Shown: positions 43,316 through 64,000 of the stretch, piece by piece
How the letters are laid out: every line of letters begins with the position of its first letter
Position numbering within the stretch: the stretch's first letter is position 1
Position numbers and translations under genes: made by a program
Assembly (NCBI RefSeq): GCF_918741295.1
Contig: NZ_CAKKNB010000003.1
Span: forward strand, 186,001-250,000
From: Aquabacterium sp. CECT 9606
GTDB taxonomy: Bacteria > Pseudomonadota > Gammaproteobacteria > Burkholderiales > Burkholderiaceae_C
Direction: 5' to 3'
Length of the DNA: 64,000 nt
The notes under the pieces: generated by a model
What the model was told of the DNA's origin: nothing
The model's input: only the letters and a program-made list of their open reading frames with translations
The model's database searches: none

Positions 43316-43328
43316 AATTGGTAGCCCC

Positions 43329-44528: not shown

Positions 44529-44690
44529 GGTCTGCCGCGCAAAATATGAGCGCTCTCCAAGGTTTATTCGAAAAGCGGCTTGCACGGACGCAGTGACTCA
44601 GCAGATTGAATATCTGCTGCACCGCTATGAGTCATGCAAACTGCGCTTTTCCCTTGGCCGAACAATAAGCAGGTTGTGGGCCAGCGCACC

Positions 44691-44941: not shown

Positions 44942-45013
44942 GATGTTCTCCTTTGATGGAAGTGGACACAGGCAAAATCTGGCAATCAGCATGCCGGCCC
45001 AGGGCTTTCTGAA

Positions 45014-46243: not shown

Positions 46244-46313
46244 GCCTGAATCCTTCATGTGGTGAGTGTTGATCAGCCAGACGCTACCATGATGAGGATT
46301 TTCCACTGAAAGA

Positions 46314-47720
46314 ATGGTCATGCCGACAGCACCCGACGACATCCTTGCCCGGCTCCATGGGATCGTGGGCGAAAGCCATGTGAAGACCGACCCCGACAGC
46401 CTCAAACACTGGGGTTGCGACTGGACCAAGGTGCGCACCCCGGCCCCTTTGGCCATCGTGTTTCCGTCGAGCATTGAAGAGGTTCAGGCCATCGTGCGCC
46501 TGGCCAACGAGTTGCAACTGGCCCTGGTGCCCTCTGGCGGGCGCACGGGTTTGTCGGCGGCAGCCGTGGCCGCTGAAGGCGAAGTGGTGGTCAGCTTTGA
46601 CCGCATGAACCGCATCATCGAATTCATGCCGGAAGACCGCTTGGTGCGGCTTCAGGCGGGTGTTGTCACGGCTCAGTTGCAAGCATTTGCCGAAGAGCAG
46701 GGGCTGTACTACCCGGTGGACTTTGCCAGCGCCGGCTCGTCGCAACTGGGCGGCAACATCGGCACCAACGCGGGGGGTATCAAGGTCATCAAATACGGCA
46801 TGACGCGCAACTGGGTGCTGGGCCTGAAGGTGGTCACTGGCAAGGGCGATGTGCTGGACCTGAACAAGGGCATGGTGAAGAACGCCACCGGCTACGATTT
46901 GCGCCAATTGTTCATCGGAGCGGAAGGCACGCTGGGTTTCGTGGTCGAGGCGATGATGAAGCTCGACCGGGCGCCGCGTGATTTGCGCGTGATGGTGCTG
47001 GGCACACCCGACTTCGCCGCGGTGATGAAGGTGCTGGCGGCGTTTCAGAAGCAGCTGGACCTGACGGCCTTTGAGTTCTTCTCGGAGTTGTCGGTGCAAC
47101 TGGTGACCAAGCACCAGGGCGTGCCACGGCCTTTCAATGCAGCCACGCCGTTTTACGCCTTGCTGGAGTTCGAGGCATCCAGCGAGAAGGTGGTGGACGA
47201 GGCCATGGCCTTGTTCGAGTCCTGCGTGGAACAGGGCTGGGTGGTCGATGGCGTGATGAGCCAGAACCAGACGCAGGCCAAATCGCTTTGGCGTTTGCGC
47301 GAAGGCATTTCTGAAACCATCTCGCACTACACGCCGTATAAAAACGACTTGTCGGTGCTGATCCAGCATGTGCCGGCGTTCATCGCCGAGATCGATGGCA
47401 TCGTGGCCGAGCAGTACCCCGACTTCCGAGTCGTCTGGTTCGGCCACATCGGCGATGGCAATGTGCACCTGAACATCCTCAAGCCTGACGACATGGCCAA
47501 GGAGGATTTCTTTGCCAGGTGCGCCACCGTGAACACGCAGATCTTCGAAACGGTGGCACGGTACGAGGGATCGGTGTCGGCCGAGCATGGCGTGGGCCTG
47601 ACCAAAAAACCCTACCTGGGCTACAGCCGATCGCCGGAGGAGCTGGCCTACATGAAAGCCGTCAAGCTCGTGTTCGACCCCAACAACGTGATGAACCCGG
47701 GCAAGGTGTTTGACCTTTGA
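46314..47720 (+). CDS. FAD-binding D-2-hydroxyacid dehydrogenase, probably D-2-hydroxyglutarate dehydrogenase
   Basis: 468-residue flavoenzyme of the GlcD/DLD family that oxidises a D-2-hydroxyacid and passes electrons to the respiratory chain. Seen: FAD-binding PCMH domain (ALVPSGGRTGLSAAAV; QLGGNIGTNAGGIKVIKYGM) and a C-terminal FAD-oxidase domain with metal-site motifs GHIGDGNVHLN and EHGVGLTKKPYLG. The serA neighbour favours D-2-hydroxyglutarate: in Pseudomonas SerA makes that compound and this enzyme recycles it. Glycolate or D-lactate remains possible. Confidence 0.88.
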   Translation: MVMPTAPDDILARLHGIVGESHVKTDPDSLKHWGCDWTKVRTPAPLAIVFPSSIEEVQAIVRLANELQLALVPSGGRTGLSAAAVAAEGEVVVSFDRMNRIIEFMPEDRLVRLQAGVVTAQLQAFAEEQGLYYPVDFASAGSSQLGGNIGTNAGGIKVIKYGMTRNWVLGLKVVTGKGDVLDLNKGMVKNATGYDLRQLFIGAEGTLGFVVEAMMKLDRAPRDLRVMVLGTPDFAAVMKVLAAFQKQLDLTAFEFFSELSVQLVTKHQGVPRPFNAATPFYALLEFEASSEKVVDEAMALFESCVEQGWVVDGVMSQNQTQAKSLWRLREGISETISHYTPYKNDLSVLIQHVPAFIAEIDGIVAEQYPDFRVVWFGHIGDGNVHLNILKPDDMAKEDFFARCATVNTQIFETVARYEGSVSAEHGVGLTKKPYLGYSRSPEELAYMKAVKLVFDPNNVMNPGKVFDL

Positions 47721-47750
47721 AGGGCTGGGCTGCCGATGGATGCGTGCGGC

Positions 47751-50700
47751 TCACTGCAGCACGCCGATCACGATCAGAACACTGTTGCCGCCCGAGATTT
47801 GGGCCGGGCCTTCGCCACCATGCGGGTCGCCCATCTGCGCGGCCCGGCCTGGGTCGATCTTGTCAGCGCCGGTGTTGACCTGGGCGCCGTAGAACACGCT
47901 GTCGATCTGCACCTTGCCCCTCACGCCATAGAGCATGGGTGACTGGTTGTTGAAGTAATCAAGCTGGCTGCCGGAGCCCGACAGTTCAATGCGGAAAGCA
48001 GGCTTGTCGGCGGTGCCGTCCTTGCCCAGGTAGGTGTACGAGATGTCGCCACGCCAGTCCGACAGGTTCACGGATTGGCCGCTGGTGGCCGTGATGCCCG
48101 CGCTGCCGCCCACCGCCAGCGAACTGCCCCCGCCCAGTTTGAAATCGAAGGATCCGAAAGGTTGCACGCGGTTGACCGAGCCGGCCGTGGGGGTGCCACT
48201 GGCATCCTTGGGGGCCAGGCTGTCTTCGGCCTTCCAGCTCATGTGGGTGACCTTGAAGCCGACCTTCTTGAGTGGCCCTTCAGCCGGCGCATAGGCCAGG
48301 CCTTCGGTGAAGAACATGGACGTGAGCTGCTTGGCCTGCGGCCCGCTGTAGTGCCCGCCAACGTCGGCCAGGATGAACATGCCCTCGCTGCCGAACAAGG
48401 CGCCAGCCCTGAAGCGCGCATCGGCCACGCGGCCTTGGTCGGCCAGCTCGGGCGTGGGCCGCAGGCGCTGGTAGTCACCCCAGACGCTGCCTTGCCAGCC
48501 CCGGTACTTGCGAGGGTCGTCCAGGTCGGCCGCGCCCAGCTTGTTCTGCTCATTGGGCGCCACCAGCTTGGCCAGGTTGACCGTGCCGCCCAGGTGCAGC
48601 AGGTCGCCGCCGTTGGGGCCCGAAGCTGCATCCACGTTCAGACCGGTGGGCAGGTTGCCGCCAAAGTAGCTGTCTTGGGCATAGTAGGGGTGGCTGGGCG
48701 TGAGCAGTGGGCCGACGTCGAAGATGCCCGGCGCCTTGAGCTTTTCCTTGAAGATAAGACCCACCATGGTCTTGGCCAGCAGCAAATCGGCGTTCCAGGT
48801 CTCATCGACCAGGCCGCCTTCATCGGGGCTCGGCGGTGCAGCGCGGTCCTTGGTGAGGATGCCAATCTGTGCCATCCAGGCCAGGAAAAGTACCGTCTGG
48901 TAGTTGTCCTTGAGGCGCTTGGTGAAGGTGTCGCTGCCCAGGTATTCGTCCACCCGTAAACCGACCATGCGGCTGACGATGTCGGTTTTGATCGAGTTGC
49001 TGGGTGTGAGGGGTTCGATGGCGTCGAGGTACTTGCCGAAGGTGGACAGGTTGCTGCCGATGCTGTCGCCATACTGCAGCCCACCGACGCCCCCATTGGG
49101 CAGGATGGCGGCGCTGAACAGGGCGCCATACGAGGCGGACTCGGTGCCTTTGAGCTTGAATTTCTGGCGCTCTTCGGCTGAGAAGTCTGTGCCATAGCGC
49201 AAGTCTTTGTAGATGTCGCTGACGAGCCCGACCACGAGCGGGTGGTCTGCCGCCTTTTTGGCAGCTTCCTCCAGCTTGGGGTCGGCCTTGGCCTCCGTTT
49301 TGGCCGGGTCTTTTCCATCGGCCGTGGGTGGCGTGGCTGCGCTGGGTTCACGTTGAATCACCGGCCCGGCCGCGCTGATGGCGGCAGGGTCGGCCATGCG
49401 CATGATCTGATCAGCGACCGCGTCAGCCTCTTGCTCCAACGCATCACCAGGCGTGCTGACGGTGGCTTTGCGTTGCACGGTGGCCTCGGTTGCCACATTC
49501 TTCTTCAAGATGTCGAGCGCGCGTTCATAAGCTTTGGTCTTGCGTTGGCCGGCCTGCTTGACGCCGTTCCAGAAGGCCAGGCGCTCGGTGGCATCGGGGT
49601 TGCCCTTGGCCTTCTCGCCCGTCCAGTGCGCGATCTTGGCGTCGAAGTTGTCGCCACCGGTTTCCCACCGGTCTTCCGGGCCGGTGCCACCAAAGTTGGC
49701 GGTTTTGCCGCTCATCTCGGTCGAGGCCTGCACCCCGCCGCTGGCGTGCATGGCCGCCGCGGAAAAGATGAAGGCGTATTGCGGATCAGCGGCGGCGGTC
49801 GGGTTGGCCTTGACGGCTGCGGAGGTGGCCCGCGCCAGGGCCGCATCATCGGTCTGGCCTTGCGAATCAAGCCGCTCGGCCTGTTCGTCCAGGTAGGCCA
49901 GGGCTTTGATGTACTGCTGCCGGAAGGTGATCTGCAAGGGCCCCCGGCCCGCGAATTGGCCCACCACGGCGGGGTCGGCCTGGGCCGTCAGCGAGCGCAG
50001 GCCGCGCGACTCGACGGCGGCGTGTGCCAGGTACAAGGCCTGCGCTTGCAGGGTGTCGATCTGCATCACCCTGAAAGCCTCGGTGAGGCGCTCGCCCGCG
50101 CCGGTGGCGGCTTGTTTGATCTGGGCCAGGTCTTTGTCCCCATAGCCGGGGTCGGTCATCACCGCTTCCACGTCGGCGTCGGTCAAGGCCTTGCTCATGT
50201 CCATGCGGGTGCCGGTTTGGCCGTTGGGGCCGACGGCTTCGCTGGCAGATTCCAGGTCCGCCTGGTGGCGTGTTTTCTGCTTCTTGTCCTGTCCGGTGAA
50301 GGTCACGTCCTCGCCAATGGTGCCCCGTTCGGCGCCATAGGCCGTGGCAGGGTTCTTGCCATAGGCCTTGTTCCACTTTTTGTTCTTGATCTCTTCCTCG
50401 GCCTGGGTCTCGGCATCCACGATGTCGTAGAACTCGCGGGCGATGTTGCTGGGCCCGGTGCGTTGGCCGTTTTGCTGAACGATGTGGGTCAACTCGTGGG
50501 CCAGCAGCCGTTTGCCACCCTCGGTGTCGGGCGCGTATTGGCCCGCGCCAAACACGATGTTTTGCCCGGTGGTGTAGGCCTTGGCCTGGATGCCTTGTGC
50601 GGCCTGCGCCGCTTTGCCATCGGTGTGGAGCCGCACCTGGCTGAAGTCCTGGCCAAAGCGTGGCTCGAAATAGGACCGCAGCTCCTGGGGCAGGGCCTGG

Positions 50701-50945
50701 CCGCTGCGCTGCGCGGTCTCAACAGCCGTGCGGGTGTCCAGCGGTTCACTCGTCTGGCCGGACTCTTGGCGGGCTTCTCGCTGCAAGGTGGCCGGCTGGC
50801 AACGTGGGCAAGCGCCGCCACAGGCGCAGCCTGAGGGCGAGCGCATCAGCTGGTTCAATGGCCCGGAAGAAGCCGCAGGGGCCGCGCGCCTGGCCAGCGC
50901 GGGCGTTTTGGGGGCGTGGGCAGGCGGAGATTTTTGAGATGACAT
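47751..50945 (-). CDS. eCIS-associated DUF4157 protein with a GH19-like lytic segment (probable cargo)
   Basis: 1064-residue multidomain protein, no signal peptide. Seen in order: CxCGGxCxxC motif (40-49, CACGGACPRC); DUF4157/eCIS-core domain (about 85-160) with HELTHIVQQ at 150-158; a segment (about 300-350) with AHAAVESRG and GRGPLQITFRQQY, like the GH19 chitinase/endolysin active site (E312 as candidate acid). Then a second EQEADAVADQIMRM stretch (504-517) of the kind that usually precedes DUF4157, and an unrecognised 540-residue C-terminal region with beta-rich repeats. Last gene of the injection operon, nine bases after the previous one. Lytic or toxic activity is inferred. Confidence 0.75.
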   Translation of the reverse strand: MSSQKSPPAHAPKTPALARRAAPAASSGPLNQLMRSPSGCACGGACPRCQPATLQREARQESGQTSEPLDTRTAVETAQRSGQALPQELRSYFEPRFGQDFSQVRLHTDGKAAQAAQGIQAKAYTTGQNIVFGAGQYAPDTEGGKRLLAHELTHIVQQNGQRTGPSNIAREFYDIVDAETQAEEEIKNKKWNKAYGKNPATAYGAERGTIGEDVTFTGQDKKQKTRHQADLESASEAVGPNGQTGTRMDMSKALTDADVEAVMTDPGYGDKDLAQIKQAATGAGERLTEAFRVMQIDTLQAQALYLAHAAVESRGLRSLTAQADPAVVGQFAGRGPLQITFRQQYIKALAYLDEQAERLDSQGQTDDAALARATSAAVKANPTAAADPQYAFIFSAAAMHASGGVQASTEMSGKTANFGGTGPEDRWETGGDNFDAKIAHWTGEKAKGNPDATERLAFWNGVKQAGQRKTKAYERALDILKKNVATEATVQRKATVSTPGDALEQEADAVADQIMRMADPAAISAAGPVIQREPSAATPPTADGKDPAKTEAKADPKLEEAAKKAADHPLVVGLVSDIYKDLRYGTDFSAEERQKFKLKGTESASYGALFSAAILPNGGVGGLQYGDSIGSNLSTFGKYLDAIEPLTPSNSIKTDIVSRMVGLRVDEYLGSDTFTKRLKDNYQTVLFLAWMAQIGILTKDRAAPPSPDEGGLVDETWNADLLLAKTMVGLIFKEKLKAPGIFDVGPLLTPSHPYYAQDSYFGGNLPTGLNVDAASGPNGGDLLHLGGTVNLAKLVAPNEQNKLGAADLDDPRKYRGWQGSVWGDYQRLRPTPELADQGRVADARFRAGALFGSEGMFILADVGGHYSGPQAKQLTSMFFTEGLAYAPAEGPLKKVGFKVTHMSWKAEDSLAPKDASGTPTAGSVNRVQPFGSFDFKLGGGSSLAVGGSAGITATSGQSVNLSDWRGDISYTYLGKDGTADKPAFRIELSGSGSQLDYFNNQSPMLYGVRGKVQIDSVFYGAQVNTGADKIDPGRAAQMGDPHGGEGPAQISGGNSVLIVIGVLQ

Positions 50946-50954
50946 CGCGGCAAC

Positions 50955-52142
50955 TCAGGGCGTGCATTCAAGTTTGATTTTGGTGCCAGGCACCGGGTGG
51001 GCCTGGTTGTAGGTGTCGATGGTGGTGCCCACGCAATGGGTGAGCTTGTTCGATGCTTTCTCGGCACTGGCCGCGTAGGCCTTGACGGCGGCTTTGTAGG
51101 TGGCGATCTCGTCGGTGAACTTCCGGCGCGTCATGCCGCTGGTGCCGTTGAAGGTGGGCAAGGGGTTGGCCTTCAGGTAGGCGACATAGTCCAACCCATG
51201 GTTGCCTTCGTGCCAGCGCAAGGTGGTGGATGCCGGGTTGACCTTGCCGCCAGCGATGTCTTCGGCCGTGGTGCCGCGCCCATAGCCCGAGGTGGTGGAG
51301 CCGGGCATGCCTGGCGGGTAGGCGGTCTGGATGGTGGCCAGGTTGGCGGGGGCGGTGAAGGTGTCGATGGTCTCTGTCTTGCCAGAGATCAAGGTGGTGA
51401 ATGGGATGTCCACCGGGATCAACAGGCGAGTGACTGGCGTGGTGATGCTGGGGTCCACCATGTCCGTCAGGATCTTCACGCTGGTGCCGCTGGATGTGCT
51501 GAAACCCACCTCGCCGCTCAAGGGGTCGACGGCTTGCCCTTGGTCAAGCGGTGTTGAAATGCCCGTTTCCTGGCGGTGCGCCGACCGCCAGGCCCACATG
51601 GGGATGCGCGCGCTGTTGATGCCATAAAGCGCATCCTCGGTGGTGCTGAGCGCGGTGGCGGCCTTGGGCATCAGGGCTCGGATGGCGCTGATGTAGGCGG
51701 CTTGCAGGTCTCGGTCCAGCAGGGTGTCGCCGCTGAGCTGGTCCTTGATGAGTTTCTGGGTGTCGGTCACCTTGGCGTACCAGCCATTGATGTCGGTCTC
51801 GAAAGAGGCGGCGTCCACCTTGCCCTGGGCGCTGCCGATCGTGGTGGCCGCGTTGGTGAAGGCGGCGATGGCGGCCTTGACAGCATCGCGGTGGTCCTTT
51901 TCGGTGGGGGCGCCGGGCTTGGGCTCGCGGGCGATCACGGGGCCGGCGGTCTGGGTGATCGGCAAGGTGGCTGGCGAGGCGGACTGGCAGCGCTGGCAGC
52001 CCCCGCCGCAGGCACAGCCTTGTCTTTGCACGGTCGGGCCGGTTGCAGGAGATGCGTCGGTCCGCGGGCCAGGCGTCTGCCGTGGTGTGGTGGGGGCGAG
52101 GATGCGGGTGGACTGGCCCTGCGGGGCCTTCAAGGCAGGCAT
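50955..52142 (-). CDS. eCIS-associated putative metallopeptidase with Cys-motif N-terminus (probable cargo)
   Basis: 395-residue protein, no signal peptide. Seen: a Pro/Thr-rich N-terminus with CxCGGxCxxC at 43-52 (CACGGGCQRC) as in both neighbours; a helical middle (about 80-175); then a C-terminal region with HEGNHGLDYV, an HExxH zinc-site match at 311-315. No DUF4157 domain is visible. The start MPALKAPQG lies five bases after the preceding stop; a frame extended 45 codons upstream overlaps that gene and is not supported. Function inferred only from the motif and context. Confidence 0.65.
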   Translation of the reverse strand: MPALKAPQGQSTRILAPTTPRQTPGPRTDASPATGPTVQRQGCACGGGCQRCQSASPATLPITQTAGPVIAREPKPGAPTEKDHRDAVKAAIAAFTNAATTIGSAQGKVDAASFETDINGWYAKVTDTQKLIKDQLSGDTLLDRDLQAAYISAIRALMPKAATALSTTEDALYGINSARIPMWAWRSAHRQETGISTPLDQGQAVDPLSGEVGFSTSSGTSVKILTDMVDPSITTPVTRLLIPVDIPFTTLISGKTETIDTFTAPANLATIQTAYPPGMPGSTTSGYGRGTTAEDIAGGKVNPASTTLRWHEGNHGLDYVAYLKANPLPTFNGTSGMTRRKFTDEIATYKAAVKAYAASAEKASNKLTHCVGTTIDTYNQAHPVPGTKIKLECTP

Positions 52143-52147
52143 CTGGG

Positions 52148-53374
52148 CTAGCCTGCCGTGTGGCCAACGCAGGATGCGGGCGCAGCTTGTCCGGACACCC
52201 GGGCCGCGAATGATTCGAAGCAGGACGAATCTGCCCGGCGCAAGGCGTTGGGCGCGTGCTGGAGCATCGAGAACCACACGTGGAAGGGTTCGTGCAGCAG
52301 GGTCAGGCCCCGCTGGTCAGGCGTGTTCCAGAACGTGGGGCATAGCACGATCAGGCGGTTGCCAGGGCAGCTGAAAGCGAAGTTGGTGCCGCAAGCGCCA
52401 GCGGTGCAGCCCACGAGCTTGAAGTTTTCGCCACCCAGGCATTGGTAGCGCAAGTAGCCGCTTTCCAGCGTGGTGCGGACACGGTTGAAACGGGTGATCT
52501 GCTGCTGGATGATGGGGAAGTGGGCGCGGTTGGTCAGCGTCAGCCCCAACTCCTCCTGCAAGATGGTGTCGAAGGCCGCGTCCACCGGATCGCCTGCGCG
52601 CGCCGAGTCCAGGTTGGTGGTCAGCTGGTCTTCTGCAGCTTGAGCCAGCGTGATCGCTTCAGCATCGGCATCCGTGATGGCCTGCACGACTTCGTCGCCG
52701 GTCAGGGCCGGGTTGGTCAAACCATCGGCTTCACAACTGACATTGGCCCGGCGCACCAGGCGGTTCACCATGGGCTCGATCGCGGCCTGCTGCTGCACCA
52801 CGTGGGTCAGTTCGTGCGCCAGCAGTTGGCGGCCAGACTGGCTTTGCGGCGTGTACTCGTTGGCGCCAAACACGATGTCGGCACCTACCGTGTAGGCGCG
52901 GGCATTGATCCCTTCGGCGGATTGGGCTGCTTCGGCGCCATCGTGAACGCGGACTTCGGCGAAGTCATGCCCAAAGCGCGATTCCATGAAGTCGCGCGTG
53001 GACGAGTCCAATGGTTTGCCGGGCGATTGAAGGCCGCTGGCCACGGGGGTGCCAGCCATGGCCGCATCGGTGTCGCGGATTGGTTTGCGCCGAACAGCGG
53101 GGCGATCCTCAGATTCGCTTTGCTCGATGGGTGCGCTGGGACTGCGCATGACCTTGTCGGCGACCTGGTCCGCCTCGCGCTCCAGGGCATCGTCCGGTTC
53201 GCTCACGCGCAATGCCGAGGATGCCCCGGCCTGGCAACGCGGGCAACTGCCACCGCAGGCGCAGCTGGCCCGCTGGACCAGCGACGGCGGCCATCCCTGC
53301 GCACGCCGCACAGGCTCGCCTTTGGAGAACCTGGCCCGCGCCGGAGACCTGGCCAGCAGTTGGTGGTTCATCAT
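52148..53374 (-). CDS. eCIS-core (DUF4157) protein with a second HExxH peptidase motif (probable cargo)
   Basis: 408-residue protein, no signal peptide. Seen: CxCGGxCxxC at 38-47 (CACGGSCPRC), a DALEREADQVADKVMR stretch, and a DUF4157 domain (about 122-195; FMESRFGHDFAEVRVHDG) with HELTHVVQQ at 187-195. A C-terminal Cys-rich domain carries LCPTFWN and HEPFH at 361-365, which resembles deuterolysin/M35-like peptidases. Family knowledge: DUF4157 marks proteins linked to extracellular contractile injection systems. A good ribosome-binding site (GAGGAG) precedes the ATG. Whether it is a protease toxin or a loading factor is unknown. Confidence 0.78.
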   Translation of the reverse strand: MMNHQLLARSPARARFSKGEPVRRAQGWPPSLVQRASCACGGSCPRCQAGASSALRVSEPDDALEREADQVADKVMRSPSAPIEQSESEDRPAVRRKPIRDTDAAMAGTPVASGLQSPGKPLDSSTRDFMESRFGHDFAEVRVHDGAEAAQSAEGINARAYTVGADIVFGANEYTPQSQSGRQLLAHELTHVVQQQAAIEPMVNRLVRRANVSCEADGLTNPALTGDEVVQAITDADAEAITLAQAAEDQLTTNLDSARAGDPVDAAFDTILQEELGLTLTNRAHFPIIQQQITRFNRVRTTLESGYLRYQCLGGENFKLVGCTAGACGTNFAFSCPGNRLIVLCPTFWNTPDQRGLTLLHEPFHVWFSMLQHAPNALRRADSSCFESFAARVSGQAAPASCVGHTAG

Positions 53375-53386
53375 GGCGAGGACTCC

Positions 53387-54130
53387 TCAGCGTTTGCGTT
53401 TGGCGGCGACAGGCTTGACTTCGGGTTCGTTGTCGGGCTTCTTGGCGGCTTTGGGCGTGCTTTTGCTCGGGGCTGTTCTGGGCTTGGGGGCTTCTGTCAC
53501 CACGTCTGTGAAGGCCGGTCGAAGCTTGAGTTTGTCCAACTCGCCCGCCTGAAGCCGTGTTTCATGGGCCGTCATCTGCCCGGCGGTCAGTGAAAACGGC
53601 TTGCTCGCCTGCGGCACCAATTTACCGCTGTCGCTGCCAATCTGCAATGTCAGCTTTCGGTTGGCGCCGATGGCATCCACCTGCGCGGGTTGCAGGATGA
53701 AGGCGTAGTAGCCCGAGGCATCGGTGGTTGCTGGCGCCACGCCGGTCACTGGCTTGCCGGCTTCGTCGATCAGGGTGACCTGAACGTGCGCGGCGGCTTT
53801 TGAGGCCTCATCGGTGATGCGCCCTTGCAGCAAGGTCTCGGTCTTGGTGACGGGGGGCACGCGGATGTTGGCGATCTGGACCTCGACCTCCAGCGCGGCC
53901 ACGCGTTGCAGCATGCTCTTACTGGCATTGGCGTAGCGCTTCACGCGCGGGTCATCGGGGTTGACGTCCGATCGAAGACGGCGAGCTTCTTCGACGATAA
54001 GCAGGCGGGACGCCAGCTGCGCGTCGAGCACCATGCCGAGCAGGTCGCTGCGCTGCACTTGCAAGGTTTCGAAAGCACCCTGCAGATCGCTTTTGTAGGT
54101 TTTTTGTCCGGTGTTGGAGATGATGGCCAT
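53387..54130 (-). CDS. eCIS-operon protein with carboxypeptidase-regulatory-like domain
   Basis: 247-residue protein of unknown role. Seen: a helical N-terminal region (about 1-90, with LQVQRSDLLGMVLDAQLASR), a beta-sandwich segment (about 100-175: LLQGRITDEASKAAAHVQV and DASGYYAFIL, typical of the carboxypeptidase-regulatory-like fold), and a lysine/proline-rich tail ending KPVAAKRKR. It lies four bases after the DUF6519 gene and 12 bases before the first DUF4157 gene, so it may be a connector, chaperone or structural accessory of the particle. Confidence 0.6.
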   Translation of the reverse strand: MAIISNTGQKTYKSDLQGAFETLQVQRSDLLGMVLDAQLASRLLIVEEARRLRSDVNPDDPRVKRYANASKSMLQRVAALEVEVQIANIRVPPVTKTETLLQGRITDEASKAAAHVQVTLIDEAGKPVTGVAPATTDASGYYAFILQPAQVDAIGANRKLTLQIGSDSGKLVPQASKPFSLTAGQMTAHETRLQAGELDKLKLRPAFTDVVTEAPKPRTAPSKSTPKAAKKPDNEPEVKPVAAKRKR

Positions 54131-54134
54131 GACG

Positions 54135-57100: not shown

Positions 57101-57848
57101 CCACCAGGCCGCCGTTCCACTGCGACCATTTGAAGCGCGCCCGGTTGGCGGCATCGGGGTCGGCCACTTCGATGCGGTACAGGTAGTGTTCGAGGCCGGT
57201 GTAACCGCCACCGGCTTCCAGCGGGCAGTCGCCGGTGATGGTGAGCACAGGCGCGGGCGACACGGTGAGCTTGCCTTTGGCGCCGAAGTTGTCGGCCAGG
57301 CCAGCGGCGGCGCTGCAATCGTCGTTGGGGCCCAGGCGCAGCAGCTTCAGGTTGGCGAAGGTCTGGGTGCGTTCGGTGGTGTCCGGGCCGCCCAGTGCAG
57401 GTTCGATCAGGTTGAGCGGGTCCTGGAAGCCGCTGACGGTGTCTTCCCACACATCCAGCACCAGCAAGTCGCGGATGCCATCGGCGATGTTGGCGGGGGT
57501 GGCCTGCGGTGTCTGGAAGGGTGGCGCCAAGTAGGTGGCGATGAAGGTGGACGGCAGGTCCAGGGTCATCGACAGCCCATCGGCCCAGGCGCGCCCGGCA
57601 TCCAGCTCGACCTTGACCAAGGTGCCATCGGTGCTGGCGCTCAGCGCCTTGAAGGCCTTGGTGTTGGACGAAGGCACGGCCAGCACGCCCGGGCCGAAGG
57701 TGTCGCGGCCCACGGCAGCTTGCCAGGTGGCGGCAATGGCCGCGGCCTCGTTCCAGTCACGGTCCAGCAGCACGCGGCCTTGCTGGTGCAGCACCCCCGA
57801 ATAATGCGGCTCCGTGTCAAAAGCCAGGAATGAAAAATCGCCCTTCAT
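54135..57848 (-). CDS. DUF6519 and right-handed beta-helix giant protein (eCIS operon)
   Basis: 1237-residue protein. Seen: the DUF6519 opening MKGDFSFLAFDTEPHYSGVL with QQGRVLLDRDWNEAAAI. A mixed beta region follows, then (about 490-700 and 870-1200) repeated short N-x-I/V beta-helix coils such as VEVAHNRILACTNAIRARN and LRILGNQITGCLLNLFDNA. Inserted between them is a carboxypeptidase-regulatory-like segment (SGVIGLVLGPDGKPRAGVQI). The start at 57848 has GAGGGA upstream; the frame extends 29 codons further but without family support. Likely a tail-fibre, adhesin or polysaccharide-binding part; this is inference. Confidence 0.75.
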   Translation of the reverse strand: MKGDFSFLAFDTEPHYSGVLHQQGRVLLDRDWNEAAAIAATWQAAVGRDTFGPGVLAVPSSNTKAFKALSASTDGTLVKVELDAGRAWADGLSMTLDLPSTFIATYLAPPFQTPQATPANIADGIRDLLVLDVWEDTVSGFQDPLNLIEPALGGPDTTERTQTFANLKLLRLGPNDDCSAAAGLADNFGAKGKLTVSPAPVLTITGDCPLEAGGGYTGLEHYLYRIEVADPDAANRARFKWSQWNGGLVGRGLYAAAAPGTGTVTITANDQMINHCGVTDFYLEALAFDAGLGSWRITLTADATLSQDGILSLTNVQGPWPAVTPATGFFRLWNGIELVADFPVGGPNPTELKDGIRLEFDAATASNANYQPGDYWTFPVRASGAAFEPPVWPANAPPQGVRHHRVALAILNWNAAPSTTITWAAGQIDDCRRIFRPLTNQKICCTYNVGDGRTSHGDFDSIEEAIQHLPASGGEICLLPGLHQTNAVIDGRRNVKIKGCDTKTKVIPRKDGDKLPIFTIRDSVNISLEHMDMVTLGGTAIVISAKKAGEVVDIEVAHNRILACTNAIRARNARGANIHHNRIRMLDKRGSDVAIYLAGDDSLIERNDIRLVPALRMPPIDVPTEPDPLDPNDPCAKLDIVYFNPRLIISYVNTVWEILLTPLTLLTQPYRALGGIQLGGGSERVRVLENTVVGGAGNGVTLGASLPVPEPEPEHVFTLPRESGVIGLVLGPDGKPRAGVQITLTDTATGDTRVEVSGADGTFRFGSNPATFRVTEGEPGLSIDKLDLQPIPGAQRFDLTITLKDDEKPTREDSGFLYDITIERNTLTAMGLSGIGVTAATQEASKLRSSALSTALGQLGTPVVGLRILGNQITGCLLNLFDNALRSTAAKQGLGGISLGLCEALAIVDNQIEDNGVTGANPVCGIFIAYGEDVEITHNRLVNNGPLSPDITTESLIPGHRGGIVIKLVSNFNLLDRQAMAQGEAFSQRPAARIHENLVDQPVGLALYAVAFGPVQCNDNAFSSELSGLSAQERMAGTVFLFDLGGVNNAGAGVELQREGSLTTAPASRVDAAGVETNAATGLHAAPAAMAVQRDAAVARLFPAGNVMFNDNQSRTGQSNTSLSCHLIASMDDLSYQSNQSFSLRSGNLFANGLLMGNTLRATNNRFSERGPETLLSLFALGVRLVNASFNQGDHCIVANDMNPAMAEVKVGNQVLNPSALCASRSTTSGILFKPHG

Positions 57849-57859
57849 GATCGTGTCCC

Positions 57860-60223
57860 TCAAGTGATCGGGATCAGCACGGGTCGCACGCCAACTGGCA
57901 TGAACTCCCGCAGCCTTATCCCGATGTTTTTCCATTTGTGCGTGCCCCGCAGGTAGCTAAAGGCCCCCATCTCGTCGTCGTGGCTGCCGCCTTCGCGGAC
58001 GCGGCGGTCGCAGTCGGGCCGCAGTTGGGCGTAGCCGGGTTGGCCAAACCATTCGGTGGTGAAGCGCAAGCGCGCGTCTGGCCCGAACACGCAGGCGAAG
58101 TGCTGCGGCAGGCGGTCGTGCTTGCCGCTGAACCAGCAGAACTTCAGACAACTGCCGCGCTGGGCCAGGCCAATGTCGACGATGTGGCTGTCCTGGTTGT
58201 CGTGCACCTCCAGGCGGTGCACGAACAGGCCGCTTTCGCCGCGCGCGGTTTGCACGCGGGTACGGCCGAAGATGGTGACGCCCTGAATGACCAGATCGGG
58301 GCCCCATTCGAGGTCGGGGTTGCCGGTGGCCGCGCCAATGGCCAGGGCGAATGGCGTGGCCGCTGCGATGCCGCTGCCCGCGTCGACGATGCTGTCGCTC
58401 AGGGTCAGCAGGTAGCCTGTGTCGATGGACAACGGGCCGGTGATGCTGCGCTGGATGGTCACCGCGGGCACTTGGTCGAAGGCGCCCAGGTCAGGTGACA
58501 CCAGGCCGTAGTCATTGCCCAGGCGCATGGCCTGGCGGATGGCGGCACGTTTGCCAGTCACACTGCCATCCAGGATTTGGCCGCCGCCGGGGTCGAGGGT
58601 GCAACCCAGCACGTTCAACTGGCCGAGCGCAGCCTGCATGATCAGGGCGTCGGTCGCCGGGAAGGTGGCATCGCGGGTGAGGTACAGGCCTTCCAGCGTC
58701 ACTTCCAGTTGCTCGGCGTTGATGGCGCCAGGGCCTGTGATCTGTGTGGGCCTGAACCGCAGGGGTTGGCGCAGGCGGATCACCGGGCGTTGTCCTGGCG
58801 CGCTGCGGATCCACAGCGAATGGGCCAAGCGCAGGGACAGCACGCCAGCGTCATTGCCGATGCCGTTGATGGCGTTCAGGTCCAGCACATGGGTCTGGCT
58901 GTCGGTGATCTCGATGACCAGGGGACGGTTGCGGGTGGGCAGGCCGTCCAGTGCCTTCTGCAAGGCCAAGGAGTCGTCGAACCAGTTGATGGTCTTGAGC
59001 TCGTAGGATTGTTCGGCGGGCCAGGTGGCGGGCAGGGCCGATCGCTTGATGGGTTGTGCGCCCGTGGGGCCGGCCAGGGCGTGGGTGGCAGATACCAGCA
59101 GGCCATCCTGCAAGGGGGTGGCTTGCGTGGCCGGGTTGGCATCGGGCACGCCAAAGACCAGGCGACCGCGCTCGGGATCGATGACGACCTCCCAGGCGCG
59201 CAATGGGGGCGCCAGGCCCGATTCCCAGGCGCAGAGGTTGGCGCCTCGGACCTGCCAGGCCTGGCCCAGGAAGGGCGTGGCGGGCAGGTGCAGGACCAGA
59301 CCGACGGCATCCGGGCCCGGGTGGGCGTTGCGCGGATCGCTGTAGGTTTGCACGGACACGTACTGGGCCGCGCGGCCGGCTGGTGTGCCGTCGGTGAGCC
59401 GTGCGGTGGGCATGGGGCCGGGCACCTCGTCTTCGCTGCCCAGGCGGGGCGGATCTTCGTCGGCGTGGAAGCGGTGCGTGTTGAACAGCGGCCAGGGCTC
59501 GCCCTGAGCTTGCACGTCGAAGCGCACGGCGAGCGCAGCCGAGCCGGGGCTGGGTGGCACGGGCGCAATCAGCCTGAACACGGGGCGCGACAAAGGCACC
59601 TGGAAATCCTCCAGACGCCAGAGCAGCACCGCCAGGTTGGGCAGGTTCCAGCCCGACATGCCCAGCGTGGGCGGCTTGATGTCCACCACGCGGGCGAACG
59701 GATCGAAGGCGCCATTGACCAGGGACAGCAGCGCCGGGTCGCGCAGTGATGTCGTGCCGCCGCGCACGGCCGATCGCATGTCGGTACGCCGCTTGAGTGG
59801 GGGCGTGCCGCCCGCATCGGGCCGCTGGTGATTGAGGTGTTGGTTCCAGGCCAGGCGTTCGCGCATCTCGACCGCGTGGGCAGCCCATCCGGACAGCGTG
59901 AACACTTGGGACTCGACCGCGCCCAGCGTGCCTTTGCGGCGCCGGTGGAAGACGGTGCGCGCCACGTCGGCCCGCAAGGTCCACGGGTCGCCAGACAGGC
60001 GGGTGGTGCCCAGCAGATCGGCGATGTAGGCCACCACCCAGTCGTCGCAATGCTCGACGAACAGGTCGTGGTATTGCGCATCGGTGCGGGCGTGCAGCGC
60101 GGCCATCGCGTCTTCGATGACGCCCAGGAAGGCTTGCAGTTGACCTGGCGGCGTTTGCTCGGTGTCGCGGATGCGGTAGATCTCGGGGAGCCGATCGAAC
60201 AGCGGCTGGCGTGGGGAGCTCAT
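57860..60223 (-). CDS. phage tail/baseplate (gpI-like) protein with beta-helix extension (eCIS operon)
   Basis: 787-residue protein. Seen: an N-terminal tail-protein domain (about 1-150) opening LFDRLPEIYRIRDTEQTPPG with WVVAYIADLLGT and FHRRRKGTLGAVE, matching the phage tail family related to P2 gpI. A long beta-rich middle follows with helix-like coils (about 480-680). The C-terminus has GQPGYAQLRPDC, DDEMGAFSYL and RLREFMPVGVRPVLIP, a conserved end in contractile injection loci. The start overlaps the upstream baseplate stop by ATGA. Probably a baseplate wedge tip; the much longer upstream frame is not used. Confidence 0.8.
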   Translation of the reverse strand: MSSPRQPLFDRLPEIYRIRDTEQTPPGQLQAFLGVIEDAMAALHARTDAQYHDLFVEHCDDWVVAYIADLLGTTRLSGDPWTLRADVARTVFHRRRKGTLGAVESQVFTLSGWAAHAVEMRERLAWNQHLNHQRPDAGGTPPLKRRTDMRSAVRGGTTSLRDPALLSLVNGAFDPFARVVDIKPPTLGMSGWNLPNLAVLLWRLEDFQVPLSRPVFRLIAPVPPSPGSAALAVRFDVQAQGEPWPLFNTHRFHADEDPPRLGSEDEVPGPMPTARLTDGTPAGRAAQYVSVQTYSDPRNAHPGPDAVGLVLHLPATPFLGQAWQVRGANLCAWESGLAPPLRAWEVVIDPERGRLVFGVPDANPATQATPLQDGLLVSATHALAGPTGAQPIKRSALPATWPAEQSYELKTINWFDDSLALQKALDGLPTRNRPLVIEITDSQTHVLDLNAINGIGNDAGVLSLRLAHSLWIRSAPGQRPVIRLRQPLRFRPTQITGPGAINAEQLEVTLEGLYLTRDATFPATDALIMQAALGQLNVLGCTLDPGGGQILDGSVTGKRAAIRQAMRLGNDYGLVSPDLGAFDQVPAVTIQRSITGPLSIDTGYLLTLSDSIVDAGSGIAAATPFALAIGAATGNPDLEWGPDLVIQGVTIFGRTRVQTARGESGLFVHRLEVHDNQDSHIVDIGLAQRGSCLKFCWFSGKHDRLPQHFACVFGPDARLRFTTEWFGQPGYAQLRPDCDRRVREGGSHDDEMGAFSYLRGTHKWKNIGIRLREFMPVGVRPVLIPIT

Positions 60224-62937
60224 GATGGCTGGGCCTCCTTGTCCACGGCAAGTTGCAATTGCAAGGCGGTGGACGTCAATGAGAGCAATCGGTCGCCGGC
60301 GCAGGGCAGGGAGCGTTGGGTGGCCGTGGTCGCGTGCAGGGTGGAGAAGGCCAACGCTGAAAGCAGCAACTGCGGCTGGTGGGTGGACATCCTGGTCAAG
60401 CGCACCCAGGCGACGCCCGGCACGTTTTGCACCGCGCCCACCACCTGCGAGCCATGCGCGCTTTCGCCGAACTGTCGTTGCTGCCAACTGAACAGGCCTC
60501 GCGATGAATCAATGCCGTCGCCTTCTTCGCCCGTGGCACCTAGGGCTTGCAGGATGGCGGCGCGCACATCGTCGGCGCGGCGGGTGGCTTCATAACCCAC
60601 GACGAGTTTCAAGGCGACCTCGGTGCGCGAGCCCTGGACCACCAGCAGTGGGCAGCGCCCCGCGCCGCGCGTGCGAACGGCCGTGCGCAAGGCGTCGGCG
60701 GCGGCCAGGGCATCGGCCTCCAGCGCGCTGTCGGTCAGGATGGTGACGCGCACCAGCGGCGAGCCGTCCACGCTGACCCAGGCGGCGCGGGCCTTGAGGA
60801 CACCGGGGATGGACAGGGCTTCGGCTTCGTAGTCGGCCAGACTGACGATGCGCCCCAGGCTTTGCATGGTACCGGGCGCGGCGGTGCGGCCGCCGTCTTC
60901 GGTTTCAGCTTGGGCGCCCCCGGTGGCGGGTTCCAGCATGAAAACGGCGTCCAGCCCGGCGGGCTTCTTGTCGGCCTGAGGCTTGGCATCCAACTTCAGC
61001 GGGCCATTTGCGCCATCGCCCGTGCGGTACACGGCGACGACGTTGCCGCGGCCCGAACGCAGTCGCGCGCCCGTCTTGCCATCGCCAAACTGCACCCAGC
61101 TCTTGCCTTCGGCGTCTTCGCGCACGATGTAGACGTGCTCTTTGGGGCCACGTCCGAACAGGCTGTCGACGCGGGTCCATTCGATGCCGTTCACCCACAC
61201 CTGCACCTGGGGCCAGTGCGGTTGAGACTGCGTGGTGTCCAGCAGGTAGGTCAGCGGGGTCTTGGGCAAGGCGAAGGTCTGGAATGTGGCGCGCGCATCG
61301 CCATCGCCCAAGGCCACTTGCGCCTCGGTCTTGCCTTGCGTGGCCTCGACCAGGTTGCCGTAGACCGTGACTTGGGGATCGTCGTGGCCGAACTGCGCGT
61401 AGGTGAACTCGCGGTCCAGTTGCACGCGGTGAAAGCCGGGTTGGTTGGCATCGACACCCGCCGTGTCCACCGCCAGCGCGGTGGCCTGGGTCAAGTCATC
61501 GCCTGGCCCTTTGAGCAACAGGCTCCGCTTGGCCAGGGCTGCAGCCTCCTGGGCCGTGCCGTAGAAGTGCAATTCATGGCCACTGGTCGCGAGGCTGGGG
61601 GTGAAGTCTGCATGCAAGCCGAAGGGCTCGCCCACCACTTCGTGGAAGCTGATGCCACGGATGTCGGCATGGCCCAGGGTGGTGAACAACTCGGTGATGG
61701 CCAGCGAATCGTCCAGGCTCAGCACAGTACTGGCGCCGGTCAAAGGCCCCCAGGTCAAGGATTGCCGATCCACCTGCGACACGCGCCGCTCCAGCAAGCG
61801 CTTGCGGTCGCTGCCGTTGCTGCTGGCCCGCAGGTTGGCCTCGATCAGGATCCGGGTTCCGGCCACGACGCTGCTCACCTCGCCATCCAAGGGCATTTGC
61901 GTGGCGCTCAAGCTGGGCACCGAAGGCGCGCCCGTGTTGGCGTTGAGCCGCCGCTTGTACGAGACCTCGGAGGTGACGGCACGCCCCAGGCTGTCGACCA
62001 CGACCTGCTGCGCGGGCGCGTTGTGCCCGAAGTGCCGGTGCGTGCTGCCCAGCTTCCAGGCTTGCAAACGCGGCGTCGAAGTCAAAGCGGGCACGCCCAA
62101 GCCCGCGGCCAGGATGGTGGTCGAGGACAGCAAGCTGATGCTGGACGAGATGGCTGGCGCGCTCAGGCTGAAACTGAAGGTCAAAGGCAAGGCCAGCAAG
62201 CTCAGCTTTTTCAGGCTGGTGACACCGCCTTTCATTTTCACGACCGTGCTGCCGAAGGACTCCCAGGTCTTGTCCACCACCAGCACTTGCAGGTGGTCGT
62301 AGGCATCGCCGCTGCCGCGCGCCACGCCGACCATCACGCGGTCACCCGCTTTCAGGCTCACGTTCGTGCCCGCGTCCAGCACCAGCGTGAAAGTGTGGGT
62401 GCCATGGCGGATGGCGGGCACCTGGCGTGGCCGGTACAGGTGGAACTGCGAGAGGGCGGGGTGCGCGATCAGCTGGCGGCTGGTCTCGAAGACGGCTGGC
62501 TTGTCCTCGCCTTCAAGTTGGGCCTTGACGCCCAGGCCCATGGGCAGCACCACAGGCTGCGTGCCTTTGACCGCGAAGGCAAAACGCGCTTTGCCGCCCA
62601 TGCCCGGGGCCAGTCGGTAGCCCAGCAGGCGCACCAGGTCGGCCACGCTGTCGCGCCATTTGGCGCTGCGCAGGTAGGCCTCGTTGGCGTACAGATCCTG
62701 GTAGAAGCTGAGGATGTCGCCAACCTCGGCGGCGGCTTCGATCAGGGCGATGCCGGGGTCGTCGGGCAGGCGGTGCGTCCACGCGGCCAACGCGGGGCTG
62801 GCGTCCAACAAGGACAGCATGTGTTCGCGCAGGTCAGCATAGCTGCCGATGCGGTAGCCGATGGTGGACAGGCCTGGTCGGTTGAAGACCACCTTGGGGA
62901 AGTCCGCCGCTTGGCGGCAGTCGTTGTCGCAGCTCAT
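60220..62937 (-). CDS. putative baseplate assembly protein (baseplate J-like, eCIS operon)
   Basis: 905-residue structural protein. Seen: an N-terminal segment GIALIEAAAEVGDILSFYQDLYANEAYLRSA with LVRLLGYRLAPG, characteristic of the putative baseplate-assembly family found in phage-tail-like injection loci (TIGR02243-like). Later come FGDGKTGARLRSGRGNVVAVYRTG, a baseplate-J/gp47 strand, and the GRIVSLADYEAEALSIPGV motif. Overlaps the next gene by ATGA and the previous baseplate gene by four bases. Role: wedge component that joins tube, sheath and spike. Confidence 0.88.
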   Translation of the reverse strand: MSCDNDCRQAADFPKVVFNRPGLSTIGYRIGSYADLREHMLSLLDASPALAAWTHRLPDDPGIALIEAAAEVGDILSFYQDLYANEAYLRSAKWRDSVADLVRLLGYRLAPGMGGKARFAFAVKGTQPVVLPMGLGVKAQLEGEDKPAVFETSRQLIAHPALSQFHLYRPRQVPAIRHGTHTFTLVLDAGTNVSLKAGDRVMVGVARGSGDAYDHLQVLVVDKTWESFGSTVVKMKGGVTSLKKLSLLALPLTFSFSLSAPAISSSISLLSSTTILAAGLGVPALTSTPRLQAWKLGSTHRHFGHNAPAQQVVVDSLGRAVTSEVSYKRRLNANTGAPSVPSLSATQMPLDGEVSSVVAGTRILIEANLRASSNGSDRKRLLERRVSQVDRQSLTWGPLTGASTVLSLDDSLAITELFTTLGHADIRGISFHEVVGEPFGLHADFTPSLATSGHELHFYGTAQEAAALAKRSLLLKGPGDDLTQATALAVDTAGVDANQPGFHRVQLDREFTYAQFGHDDPQVTVYGNLVEATQGKTEAQVALGDGDARATFQTFALPKTPLTYLLDTTQSQPHWPQVQVWVNGIEWTRVDSLFGRGPKEHVYIVREDAEGKSWVQFGDGKTGARLRSGRGNVVAVYRTGDGANGPLKLDAKPQADKKPAGLDAVFMLEPATGGAQAETEDGGRTAAPGTMQSLGRIVSLADYEAEALSIPGVLKARAAWVSVDGSPLVRVTILTDSALEADALAAADALRTAVRTRGAGRCPLLVVQGSRTEVALKLVVGYEATRRADDVRAAILQALGATGEEGDGIDSSRGLFSWQQRQFGESAHGSQVVGAVQNVPGVAWVRLTRMSTHQPQLLLSALAFSTLHATTATQRSLPCAGDRLLSLTSTALQLQLAVDKEAQPS

Positions 62938-64000
62938 CGGCGGCCTCCGGTGATCTCGAAGGTGATGCGGCCGGTTTCCAGGTGGTCCGGGTCATTGGCG
63001 ACGAGGATGATCTCGAAGGCGCCCACGTCCAGCTTCTCGGTGCGGGATTCGGGCAGCTCCGAGGGATCGATGTCGACCACGGTGATGCCGCCGCCGCTGC
63101 CAGGGTTCCAGCGCCGCATGCGCAGGCGCAGCACGCGGCCGATGCCGGTCACCTTCAGGGCTCGGCCGATCAACTGGCTGGCGTAGAGGGGCTGGCCAAA
63201 GGTCCAGGCGTCGGGGTTGAAGAAGCCGGAGCGGCCGTCGCCCGTCCAGCTGTCAGAGAACTCTTCTTCAAGCGCAGCGCGCAGGTCTTCAGGCCAGTAG
63301 GCCTGTTGGGCACACAGCGTCATCTTGATGTCCAGCGGCACGTAGCTGGCGGGTCGCACCTCCAGATCCTCGCCGATCAAGCGCACGGCTTCCAGGTGGT
63401 TGGCGATGGTCTGGCGCAAGGGTTCGGCCAGCACGGTGGTGCCCACGGGGTCGACGGCCACGCGCACGGTGCGCCAGCTGCCGGTCCAGGCGTACCTGGC
63501 TTTGGCGTGCGAGACGCCAGGCAACTCTTCCGCACGCTTGGCATAGTCCTGCAAGGTGACGGCACGCAGTTGGCGTTGGCGGTAGGCCTCGGGCACGCGG
63601 CGCACGATCTCGGCCACGGGCTCGGGGTCGCGCCCGTTGAGCACGTCAAATGGATTCCAGACAGCTTGCACTGCGCCGCTGGCATCGTCGAAGTTGACGA
63701 GGGTATCGGCTCCGACGTTGCCCTGGCTGCCTTGGCCCACGCGGTATCGGCAACGAACGAAGGCGTTGGACGGCAGGGCTGCGCCATTGGTGCCGTCGCC
63801 AAAGCGGATCGAGCTGCCACCCAGCTCATCGGTCTCGACGATGAAGTGCTCGTCGTCACCTTCACTTTCGATCAGGTCGGACTGCTCCTGCCAGGGCTGG
63901 GCAAAGCCCTGCACCGAGACCTGCGCGGTGGTGCGCGTGGGCAGGTCGCCGCCGGGCGTGGTCGCGCGGTAGGCCAGGGGCGAGGCCGGGAAGGGACACA
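62934..64000 (-). CDS. putative baseplate assembly protein, C-terminal part (5' end beyond right edge)
   Basis: The frame is open to the right edge, so at least 354 residues of a longer protein are seen. Motifs: SIRFGDGTNGAALPSN, YRVGQGSQGNVGADTL, VRRVPEAYRQRQLRAVTLQDYAKRAE and LPGVSHAKARYAWTGSW, the baseplate-J signature region. It resembles the second, larger baseplate protein usually paired with the one encoded next. The four-base overlap (62934-62937) shows translational coupling. The upstream part of the injection-system operon must lie to the right. Confidence 0.86.
   Translation of the reverse strand, partial: CPFPASPLAYRATTPGGDLPTRTTAQVSVQGFAQPWQEQSDLIESEGDDEHFIVETDELGGSSIRFGDGTNGAALPSNAFVRCRYRVGQGSQGNVGADTLVNFDDASGAVQAVWNPFDVLNGRDPEPVAEIVRRVPEAYRQRQLRAVTLQDYAKRAEELPGVSHAKARYAWTGSWRTVRVAVDPVGTTVLAEPLRQTIANHLEAVRLIGEDLEVRPASYVPLDIKMTLCAQQAYWPEDLRAALEEEFSDSWTGDGRSGFFNPDAWTFGQPLYASQLIGRALKVTGIGRVLRLRMRRWNPGSGGGITVVDIDPSELPESRTEKLDVGAFEIILVANDPDHLETGRITFEITGGRR

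Follow-up and report, generated by a model that had tools for sequence, protein, structure and literature searches.

The extracellular contractile injection systems (eCIS) have been split into subtypes by five fibre-anchor domains, one of which, eBAP5, is DUF6519 (PMC12923769, published in January 2026). That study reports eBAP5 in 658 fibre genes, frequently with beta-helix ends; the eBAP5 systems of Actinobacteriota form a subtype that had been missed before, and all eBAP types are present in some Pseudomonadota. DUF4157 together with variable cargo at the 3' end of the locus is the published norm (PMC8213781, PMC11297309), and in the same two papers the choice of cargo and the role of DUF4157 are treated as open questions. 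Signals of eCIS are described as positively charged and disordered (PMC11297309), and the N-terminal signal peptides of PVC as being loaded by the AAA+ ATPase Pvc15 (PMC11495950). The locus considered here, whose distal end lies in a 64,000-nucleotide stretch of Aquabacterium sp. CECT 9606 (the window), is of the eBAP5 type, as judged from the DUF6519 domain predicted in its tail fibre. Its three cargo proteins share an N-terminal four-cysteine leader, and this leader with its motif CxCGGxCxxC is proposed to be a cargo-loading tag. The leader, a sigma-54 site and a clean empty site in a related genome go beyond the original prediction, which had read this part of the window as the distal end of an eCIS carrying a cargo cassette; the genes for sheath, tube, cap, AAA+ ATPase, spike and gp25 are indeed found just to the right of the window.

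The window corresponds to positions 186001-250000 of contig C3 of this genome (G000), and a position on C3 is the window-scale value plus 186000, also for values above 64000. Between 47751 and 64000, eight minus-strand genes run in one direction, and the closeness originally noted for them (gaps of at most 12 bases) holds, with intergenic distances of -4 to +12 bases throughout once three starts had been corrected by hand: cargo 2 to 52142, the fibre to 57848 and the gpI-like gene to 60223. Cargo 2 was initially called as an open reading frame (ORF) from 52277, and the ATG at 52142 was preferred because of the position of the tag and the homologues. The features of this part are as follows.

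47751..50945, minus strand: cargo 3 (P0001), 1064 amino acids (aa); eCIS_core (PF13699), E=1.3e-33
50799..50828, minus strand: tetracysteine tag of cargo 3, CACGGACPRC
50955..52142, minus strand: cargo 2 (P0002), 395 aa; leader and tetracysteine tag, without DUF4157
51987..52016, minus strand: tetracysteine tag of cargo 2, CACGGGCQRC
52148..53374, minus strand: cargo 1 (P0003), 408 aa; eCIS_core (PF13699), E=9.4e-33
53234..53263, minus strand: tetracysteine tag of cargo 1, CACGGSCPRC
53387..54130, minus strand: small accessory protein, 247 aa, between fibre and cargo; PF13620, E=6e-6, below cut-off
54135..57848, minus strand: tail fibre, 1237 aa, start corrected; DUF6519, CarboxypepD_reg-like and Beta_helix
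57860..60223, minus strand: gpI/Tail_P2_I-like putative baseplate adaptor, 787 aa, start corrected; called from position, with PF09684 at E=0.064 on a longer ORF
60220..62937, minus strand: baseplate J-type protein 2, 905 aa; TIGR02243, E=5.6e-49, above cut-off
62934..65513, minus strand: baseplate J-type protein 1, 859 aa, crossing the window edge; PF04865, E=1.7e-12, and TIGR02243, E=7.6e-60

DUF4157 (eCIS_core) was found in two of the cargos, as predicted, at 112.7 and 115.5 bits (cut-off 22). Each of the three, cargo 2 without DUF4157 included, has at its N-terminus a basic leader of roughly 40 residues and, directly after it, CxCGGxCxxC. The motif was sought in all six frames of 536,790 bases, made up of 119 kb around and to the right of the window and 22 loci, a total in which some bases count twice as L013 overlaps L043/L044. 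It was matched 28 times, and all 28 matches lie close to where a cargo-like frame could start; none of 12 sets of randomised sequence gave a match; 'cargo-like' is a judgement from position and the DUF4157 motif, and the start codon was picked by script 20-52 residues ahead of the motif, so that the position is partly given by construction (in an earlier tally of 26 matches, two had no ATG available). Nor are the 28 matches independent: L006 is approximately the same cassette as that in the window, L006 and L009 are apparently the same as G004:C160 and G014:C74, and two matches come from loci chosen for holding DUF4157 genes (L066, L067). The frames have a common N-terminal design, in which the tag, and usually then a DUF4157 region, comes after a leader that is 25-49 residues long, has no more than three acidic residues and carries a net positive charge in 27 of the 28.

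At least one tagged cargo is present in 11 of the 14 informative loci or genomes that bear DUF6519 (G000, L006, L007, L008, L009, L010, L011, L012, L014, G018 and G041, the untagged ones being G051, G059 and L017), L015 and L016 having been excluded from the tally as their sequence ends at or just past the fibre. The tag can also occur away from the injector. In G041, the eCIS is on contig C24, which has no DUF4157 match, and the DUF4157 genes are on C5, C6 and C2; the two of these that were read, on C5 and C6, carry the tag. These two are the only strictly tagged proteins among 20 DUF4157 proteins read in other genomes. In same-genus genomes with no DUF6519 match, none of 16 informative DUF4157 proteins has the strict tag, three of them, from G008, having a longer variant; the remaining two of the 20 are one from G051, a DUF6519 genome, which is untagged, and one from G009, which is cut before the relevant part. 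Two stretches of G043 gave no DUF4157 match with the profile used.

It is suggested, tentatively and at slightly less than even odds, that in the eBAP5 eCIS of Proteobacteria a bipartite tag, consisting of an acid-poor basic leader of about 25-50 residues and CxCGGxCxxC, would address cargo to the injector independently of DUF4157, also when that cargo is encoded elsewhere in the genome. Several observations weigh against this. G051 has a DUF6519 fibre, yet none of the four DUF4157 genes read there (of seven) is tagged; no tag was seen in G059 or L017; one of two DUF4157 proteins in G018 is untagged, and one L009 DUF4157 cargo lacks the strict form; and the comparison of leader charge was with the rest of the same proteins only.

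Instead of serving in loading, the tetracysteine segment might have been inherited as part of the DUF4157 region; it could, for instance, be a metal-binding knuckle with a stabilising effect on that domain. This is possible, if rather doubtful. The DUF4157 core motif is present in 21 of the 28 tagged frames, and G008 (L057), a genome without a sheath or DUF6519 match, has three DUF4157 proteins with a longer CxCGN...CxxC variant (CACGN...CAEC). An inherited part of DUF4157 sits poorly, however, with the seven tagged frames (one a broken copy) that lack the core motif. P0002 is one of these, and so is its relative in L010 (55% identity); in P0002 and its relatives the four cysteines are invariant (3/3) while the rest of the leader has diverged. 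It is also at odds with the 16 same-genus proteins that have DUF4157 and no strict tag.

If the proposal of a bipartite loading tag is true, the tag would reveal effectors without DUF4157 from sequence and would mark the injector to which a cargo belongs. With a tag so short, found with or without DUF4157, at the locus or far from it, the loading code becomes directly testable and unannotated effectors could be found. Among the papers listed in searches of the open-access literature on eCIS and DUF4157, no mention of a four-cysteine cargo leader was found; in the accessible text of PMC11297309 the word 'cysteine' occurs only in the reference list, and it is absent from that of PMC11495950. As far as these searches go the cargo leader appears to be new, whereas the injector type is already published. 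Similar CxCGG...CxxC segments presumably stand ahead of DUF4157 in other phyla.

Beyond the tag, the cargos diverge. Cargo 3 is composed of the basic leader, the tag, eCIS_core, an endolysin-like region at about residues 234-345 and an orphan C-terminal region, with a second pre-core-like helix near residue 500. The endolysin-like stretch matched PHROG endolysin profiles at E=1.1e-4 and 0.0079, and its GRGPLQIT stretch is taken, by eye, to resemble chitinases of glycoside hydrolase family 19 (GH19). The C-terminal part of cargo 1 resembles M35 metallopeptidases at a score below the cut-off (PF14521, E=1.1e-5) and contains HEPFH, and the C-terminal domain of cargo 2, of unknown family, has an HEGxH motif (HEGNH or HEGQH) conserved in 3/3 homologues. 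The guess as to enzyme class is that cargos 1 and 2 may be metallopeptidase-like and cargo 3 cell-wall-hydrolase-like. Against these guesses it has to be said that they depend on sub-threshold profiles, and that cargo 3 gave no Pfam match to GH19 and matched no solved structure by sequence.

Gene content 3' of the fibre differs between loci, and the C-terminal regions of cargos compared across loci are mostly unrelated to one another. Similar ones are found within the P0002 family (L006, L009, L010), between P0003 and one L012 cargo (30% over 96 residues) and between one L012 and one L014 cargo (55%); the cargo 3 homologue in L006 is 96% identical. When two parts of cargo 3 and one of cargo 2 were used as C-terminal queries against 274 class-sampled genomes, only the genome of origin was matched; close relatives outside that sample do carry these regions. 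A cargo 3 part had no match among phage records and one among plasmid records, to a DUF4157 protein over 12% of the query. With gaps of at most 12 bases, an immunity gene would not fit between one cargo and the next, and the gene after cargo 3 lies on the other strand, 30 bases on. In L008 (15626-16030) and L009 (9063-9446), a gene for about 130 amino acids stands 3' of a DUF4157 cargo; the two start alike by eye and might be immunity or partner genes. At L009:10742 there is a broken, shortened copy of cargo 3, a 99-residue frame that keeps leader and tag, the full-length form being present in G000 and L006. The structural operon of G018 itself includes a DUF4157 gene (L037:12406-14625), which stands between those for the AAA+ ATPase and the baseplate and whose product has an AHH nuclease domain (E=1e-7).

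The type of the system is given by the fibre. The beta-helix giant of the original prediction is a fibre with DUF6519 at its N-terminus (PF20129, E=1.3e-19, residues 1-173, covering only profile positions 1-177 of 593), followed by a sub-threshold CarboxypepD_reg-like part and then a right-handed Beta_helix. The suggestion that the locus might be a new subtype, unlike Afp or PVC, stood as to the difference from these two systems and was dropped as to novelty, DUF6519 having turned out to be the published eBAP5 domain. The small accessory protein has a domain that resembles the carboxypeptidase-regulatory type, at the sub-threshold score listed above; relatives of it lie 3' of the fibre in L006, L008, L009, L010, L011 and L012, and none is found there in L007.

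Fourteen further genes to the right of the window, from gp25 to a sigma-54 activator, complete the eCIS gene set.

65515-65898: gp25; gp25 profile, E=2.7e-14
about 65895-66194: 99-aa protein of unknown family; no Pfam match
66212-66928: OB-fold spike; PF04717, E=6.4e-25
66928-68043: gpD-like protein; no Pfam match; NCBIfam and PHROG matches weak (NCBIfam E=3e-5, far below cut-off)
68049-68345: 98-aa protein, LysM candidate; sub-threshold Phage_tail_X match
68342-69031: 229-aa protein; no matches
69031-69291: 86-aa protein; no matches
69288-71423: AAA+ ATPase; PF00004, E=7.5e-30
71420-72574: Pvc16_N cap; PF14065, E=3.7e-26
72578-73414: p278, 278 aa, between tube and cap; no matches
74190-74699: tube, gp19-type; PF06841, E=1.6e-39
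74722-76698: sheath; PF04984, E=1.1e-11
76729-77004: 91-aa protein; no matches
77216-78598: sigma-54 activator; profile E=3.1e-62

The core domains listed for eCIS in PMC8213781 are represented by a sheath and a T4 gp19-type tube in one cluster, by gp25 and Baseplate_J, by cap and AAA ATPase, and by DUF4157. The two genes predicted to be baseplate-J-like both exceed the TIGR02243 cut-off ('putative baseplate assembly protein'). The cap is matched by Pvc16_N, which is taken here to be equivalent to the terminator or cap domain DUF4255. The gpI-like gene is called mainly from its position: the Tail_P2_I match was below cut-off, and the corrected 787-aa gene had no Pfam match at E<=0.01, so that this part of the original prediction stands in a weaker form. 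Relatives of it are nevertheless found with the same gene order, at 44-94% identity in ten of the loci retrieved with the fibre and at 26-30% in G018, G051 and G059. The sheath is the only PF04984 match in the genome. Its nearest solved relative in a sequence search was 8bky (E=1.4e-73), followed by Pvc2 and Afp3 (E about 1e-43), and pyocin and gp18-type phage sheaths matched far more weakly (E=1e-10 and worse). 8bky is the sheath Cis2 of the Streptomyces coelicolor contractile injection system (CIS) (PMC11566945).

The gene set is probably that of a complete-looking, conserved eCIS. The reading is weakened by two gaps. The OB spike is present and the gpD-like assignment draws on weak matches, while no PAAR gene was recognised among the operon genes scanned. 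Of the genes originally expected to the right, sheath, tube, spike and AAA+ ATPase are there and LysM is represented only by the Phage_tail_X match; no tape-measure gene was recognisable, the unassigned genes all being short and no tape-measure profile having been run, and release into the medium is thus not assured. A contact-dependent haloarchaeal system has likewise been described without a tape measure (PMC11566945). The protein p278 is apparently disordered, by eye; it aligns gap-free over its full 278 amino acids in G004, and a gene for 288 amino acids occupies the same place in G041. It is possibly a ruler or assembly factor. No confident transmembrane segment was found in the operon proteins by hydrophobicity at a cut of 1.6, the AAA+ protein and the sigma-54 activator having one borderline hydrophobic stretch apiece. 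A membrane anchor in J2 was considered and rejected, its hydrophobic stretches being borderline (1.64-1.65) and kept in two of eight informative homologues.

The activator gene may explain how the operon is turned on. The region L003 has a single perfect match to TGGCACN5TTGC, a sigma-54 promoter-like site. It occupies 18036-18050 of the minus strand (C3:263036-263050), before the structural genes, and the ATG of the gene following the activator comes 31 bases later. Four perfect matches were found in the 318,963 bases of nine such regions, three of them at this operon position: in G000, in its close relative G014 (same site) and in G041, where the spacer is different and the same gene has an in-frame ATG 38 bases after the site. 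A sigma-54 site together with an activator of its own suggests how the operon is induced, and the promoter would be used by the dedicated activator. Speaking against this, the fourth perfect match, in G004, is outside the operon; in the G059 region no match was found; a looser pattern also matches inside genes; and matches with two mismatches or fewer are not enriched in L003 (35 vs 38.0 expected).

The injector behaves as a single gained-or-lost unit, as seen from the clean empty site in a genome of the same genus. Where G000 carries about 31 kb, G336 has five bases, flanked by two stretches that match G000 at 91 and 93% identity; the alignment of G336 covers 40096-47728 and resumes at 78699, so that the missing unit is 47729-78698, from cargo 3 to the sigma-54 activator.

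47721..47750, no strand: left junction of the unit of about 31 kb, from the G336 alignment
near 78698 (C3:264698): right junction of the same unit, from the G336 alignment

In G034 the system is also missing, with no sheath match, as are three further genes at the site. At 65.9%, the G+C content of the element is above that of its flanks (61.8 and 62.9%). None of the scanned genes was recognisable as an integrase, and two short junction strips, when compared, shared no direct repeat of at least 7 bases. The only tRNA in the range scanned for them, 40000-64000, is a tRNA-Val (43239-43315), which is 4.4 kb away from the left junction. Recombination is inferred as the route of gain or loss. The right flank encodes housekeeping functions (among them a serine hydrolase, a Cys/Met pyridoxal-phosphate (PLP) enzyme, ribose-5-phosphate isomerase, an M3 peptidase, a folD-type enzyme and pyruvate dehydrogenase E1), and the left flank an FAD-linked oxidase and a 2-hydroxyacid dehydrogenase. 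An exchange hotspot had been considered and the claim was dropped, as three related genomes have no shared junction. At G001:C9, G016:C37 and G033:C99, the same PLP-enzyme gene is found about 4 kb from the cargo end of an eCIS of another type, which includes a long DUF4157 gene; the far side has a different gene in G001. A different sheath gene lies near the FAD oxidase in G031.

The genes are under purifying selection. In the G004 locus, where the fibre is 96.8% identical, 20 eCIS genes were matched and none has a stop; the first small gene and the activator have no match in that G004 contig, which also cuts off the first 23 residues of the sheath. The ratio of nonsynonymous to synonymous substitution (dN/dS) is 0-0.17 for 19 of the 20, including 0.09 for cargo 3 and 0.17 and 0.10 for the other two cargos; the exception is the fast-evolving p278, at 0.63. 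Over 47751-76698, synonymous divergence from G004 is 0.09-0.31 in the eCIS genes and 0.48 in one flanking gene, a difference that may reflect recombination between species.

A search with the fibre retrieved twelve loci. The gene order gpD, spike, gp25, J1, J2, gpI-like, DUF6519 is complete in five of them, as follows.

L006, Aquabacterium: complete order
L008, Accumulibacter: complete order
L010, Rhizobacter: complete order
L013, Burkholderiales: complete order
L015, Planctomycetaceae: complete order
L007, Rhizobacter: order without one or two separately picked genes
L011, beta-proteobacterium: order without one or two separately picked genes
L012, Bradyrhizobium: order without one or two separately picked genes
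L009 and L016: order cut by a contig end
L014 and L017: order not resolved by the ORF picker

Among 61 genomes, that of the window included, 25 had a sheath match, 22 a DUF4157 match and seven a DUF6519 match. Within the genus (37 genomes) the sheath was matched in 21 and DUF6519 in four, so that other contractile systems appear to be commoner in the genus, some of the weak sheath matches possibly being phage.

Taken together, the following course of events can be proposed. The dedicated sigma-54 activator would turn on the operon from the site before the next gene, and a headless contractile tail would assemble from the tube, sheath, cap, spike and baseplate proteins encoded there. The AAA+ ATPase would load the three cargos into the tube lumen by recognising the basic, probably disordered leader and CxCGGxCxxC, the latter perhaps folded around a metal ion. 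The DUF6519/beta-helix fibre, attached to the baseplate by the gpI-like protein, would bind the target cell, as expected from the published type. Contraction would then inject the cargos with their C-termini, metallopeptidase-like in cargos 1 and 2 and cell-wall-hydrolase-like in cargo 3 to judge from motifs and weak profiles.

The machine might, however, stay bound to the cell or in the cytoplasm, as with the cytoplasmic CIS of Streptomyces or the haloarchaeal type VI secretion system ('T6SS'), its cargo acting on contact neighbours or in the producer. The kinship of the sheath to Cis2, the failure to recognise either a tape measure or a lysis gene and the lack of space for an immunity gene between the cargos are consistent with such a system, and a mode of action predicted from sequence alone can be misleading, according to PMC12998442. 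It is unlikely all the same, given the large DUF6519 and beta-helix fibre, intracellular CIS being assumed to be fibreless (PMC12923769), and the absence of a confident transmembrane segment in the operon.

Contractile systems and phage tails have a common ancestry. That ancestry and distant sheath matches in 1,647 of 50,697 phage records notwithstanding, a decayed prophage tail or myovirus remnant is very improbable, as the original prediction had also held: those matches are all below 60% identity and none covers 80% of the sheath, no scanned operon or flanking protein had a Pfam match to capsid, portal or terminase, the scanned flanks are housekeeping, cap, AAA+ ATPase and DUF4157 are eCIS markers, and the genes are kept in order and under purifying selection in relatives (p278 and the 86-, 99- and 109-aa frames have no Pfam match at all, so that for them homology says nothing on phage identity). 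A T6SS was rejected, the two TssK genes of the genome being on other contigs, C2 and C4, and ClpV not having been searched genome-wide. With TssK at G000:C2:383252-384526 and G000:C4:402270-403574, the genome probably also has two ordinary T6SS clusters.

Several described systems resemble the locus. Like the eBAP5 type as set out in the accessible part of PMC12923769, the locus has an N-terminal DUF6519 fibre with a beta-helix C-terminus, the fibre directly after the baseplate and, called mainly from its position, a putative gpI-like gene before the fibre. Loci of eBAP3 and eBAP5 are there described as largely without Afp12 homologues; the present locus has two J-type genes. A four-cysteine cargo leader is not mentioned in that part of the paper. 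With the Streptomyces CIS that has the DUF4157 tape-measure-related effector Tme (PMC11126660), the locus shares the closest sheath (8bky) and a DUF4157 effector, but it has no long DUF4157 gene among the structural genes and has a large fibre gene. The CIS of the haloarchaeon Halogeometricum borinquense resembles it in that no tape measure was found and in its DUF4157 cargo; the toxic cargos there have downstream partners that prevent toxicity (PMC11566945), whereas no room exists between the cargos of the present locus. Afp and PVC, the lineage I eCIS, share with it the sheath, tube, Pvc16_N cap, AAA+ ATPase, spike, gp25, J-type baseplate and 3' cargo cassette. They have several sheath and tube genes, Pvc2-4 and Afp2-4 being among the sheath matches, whereas this locus has one sheath and one recognised tube, no recognised tape measure, a DUF6519 fibre, a sigma-54 activator and a distinct cargo leader.

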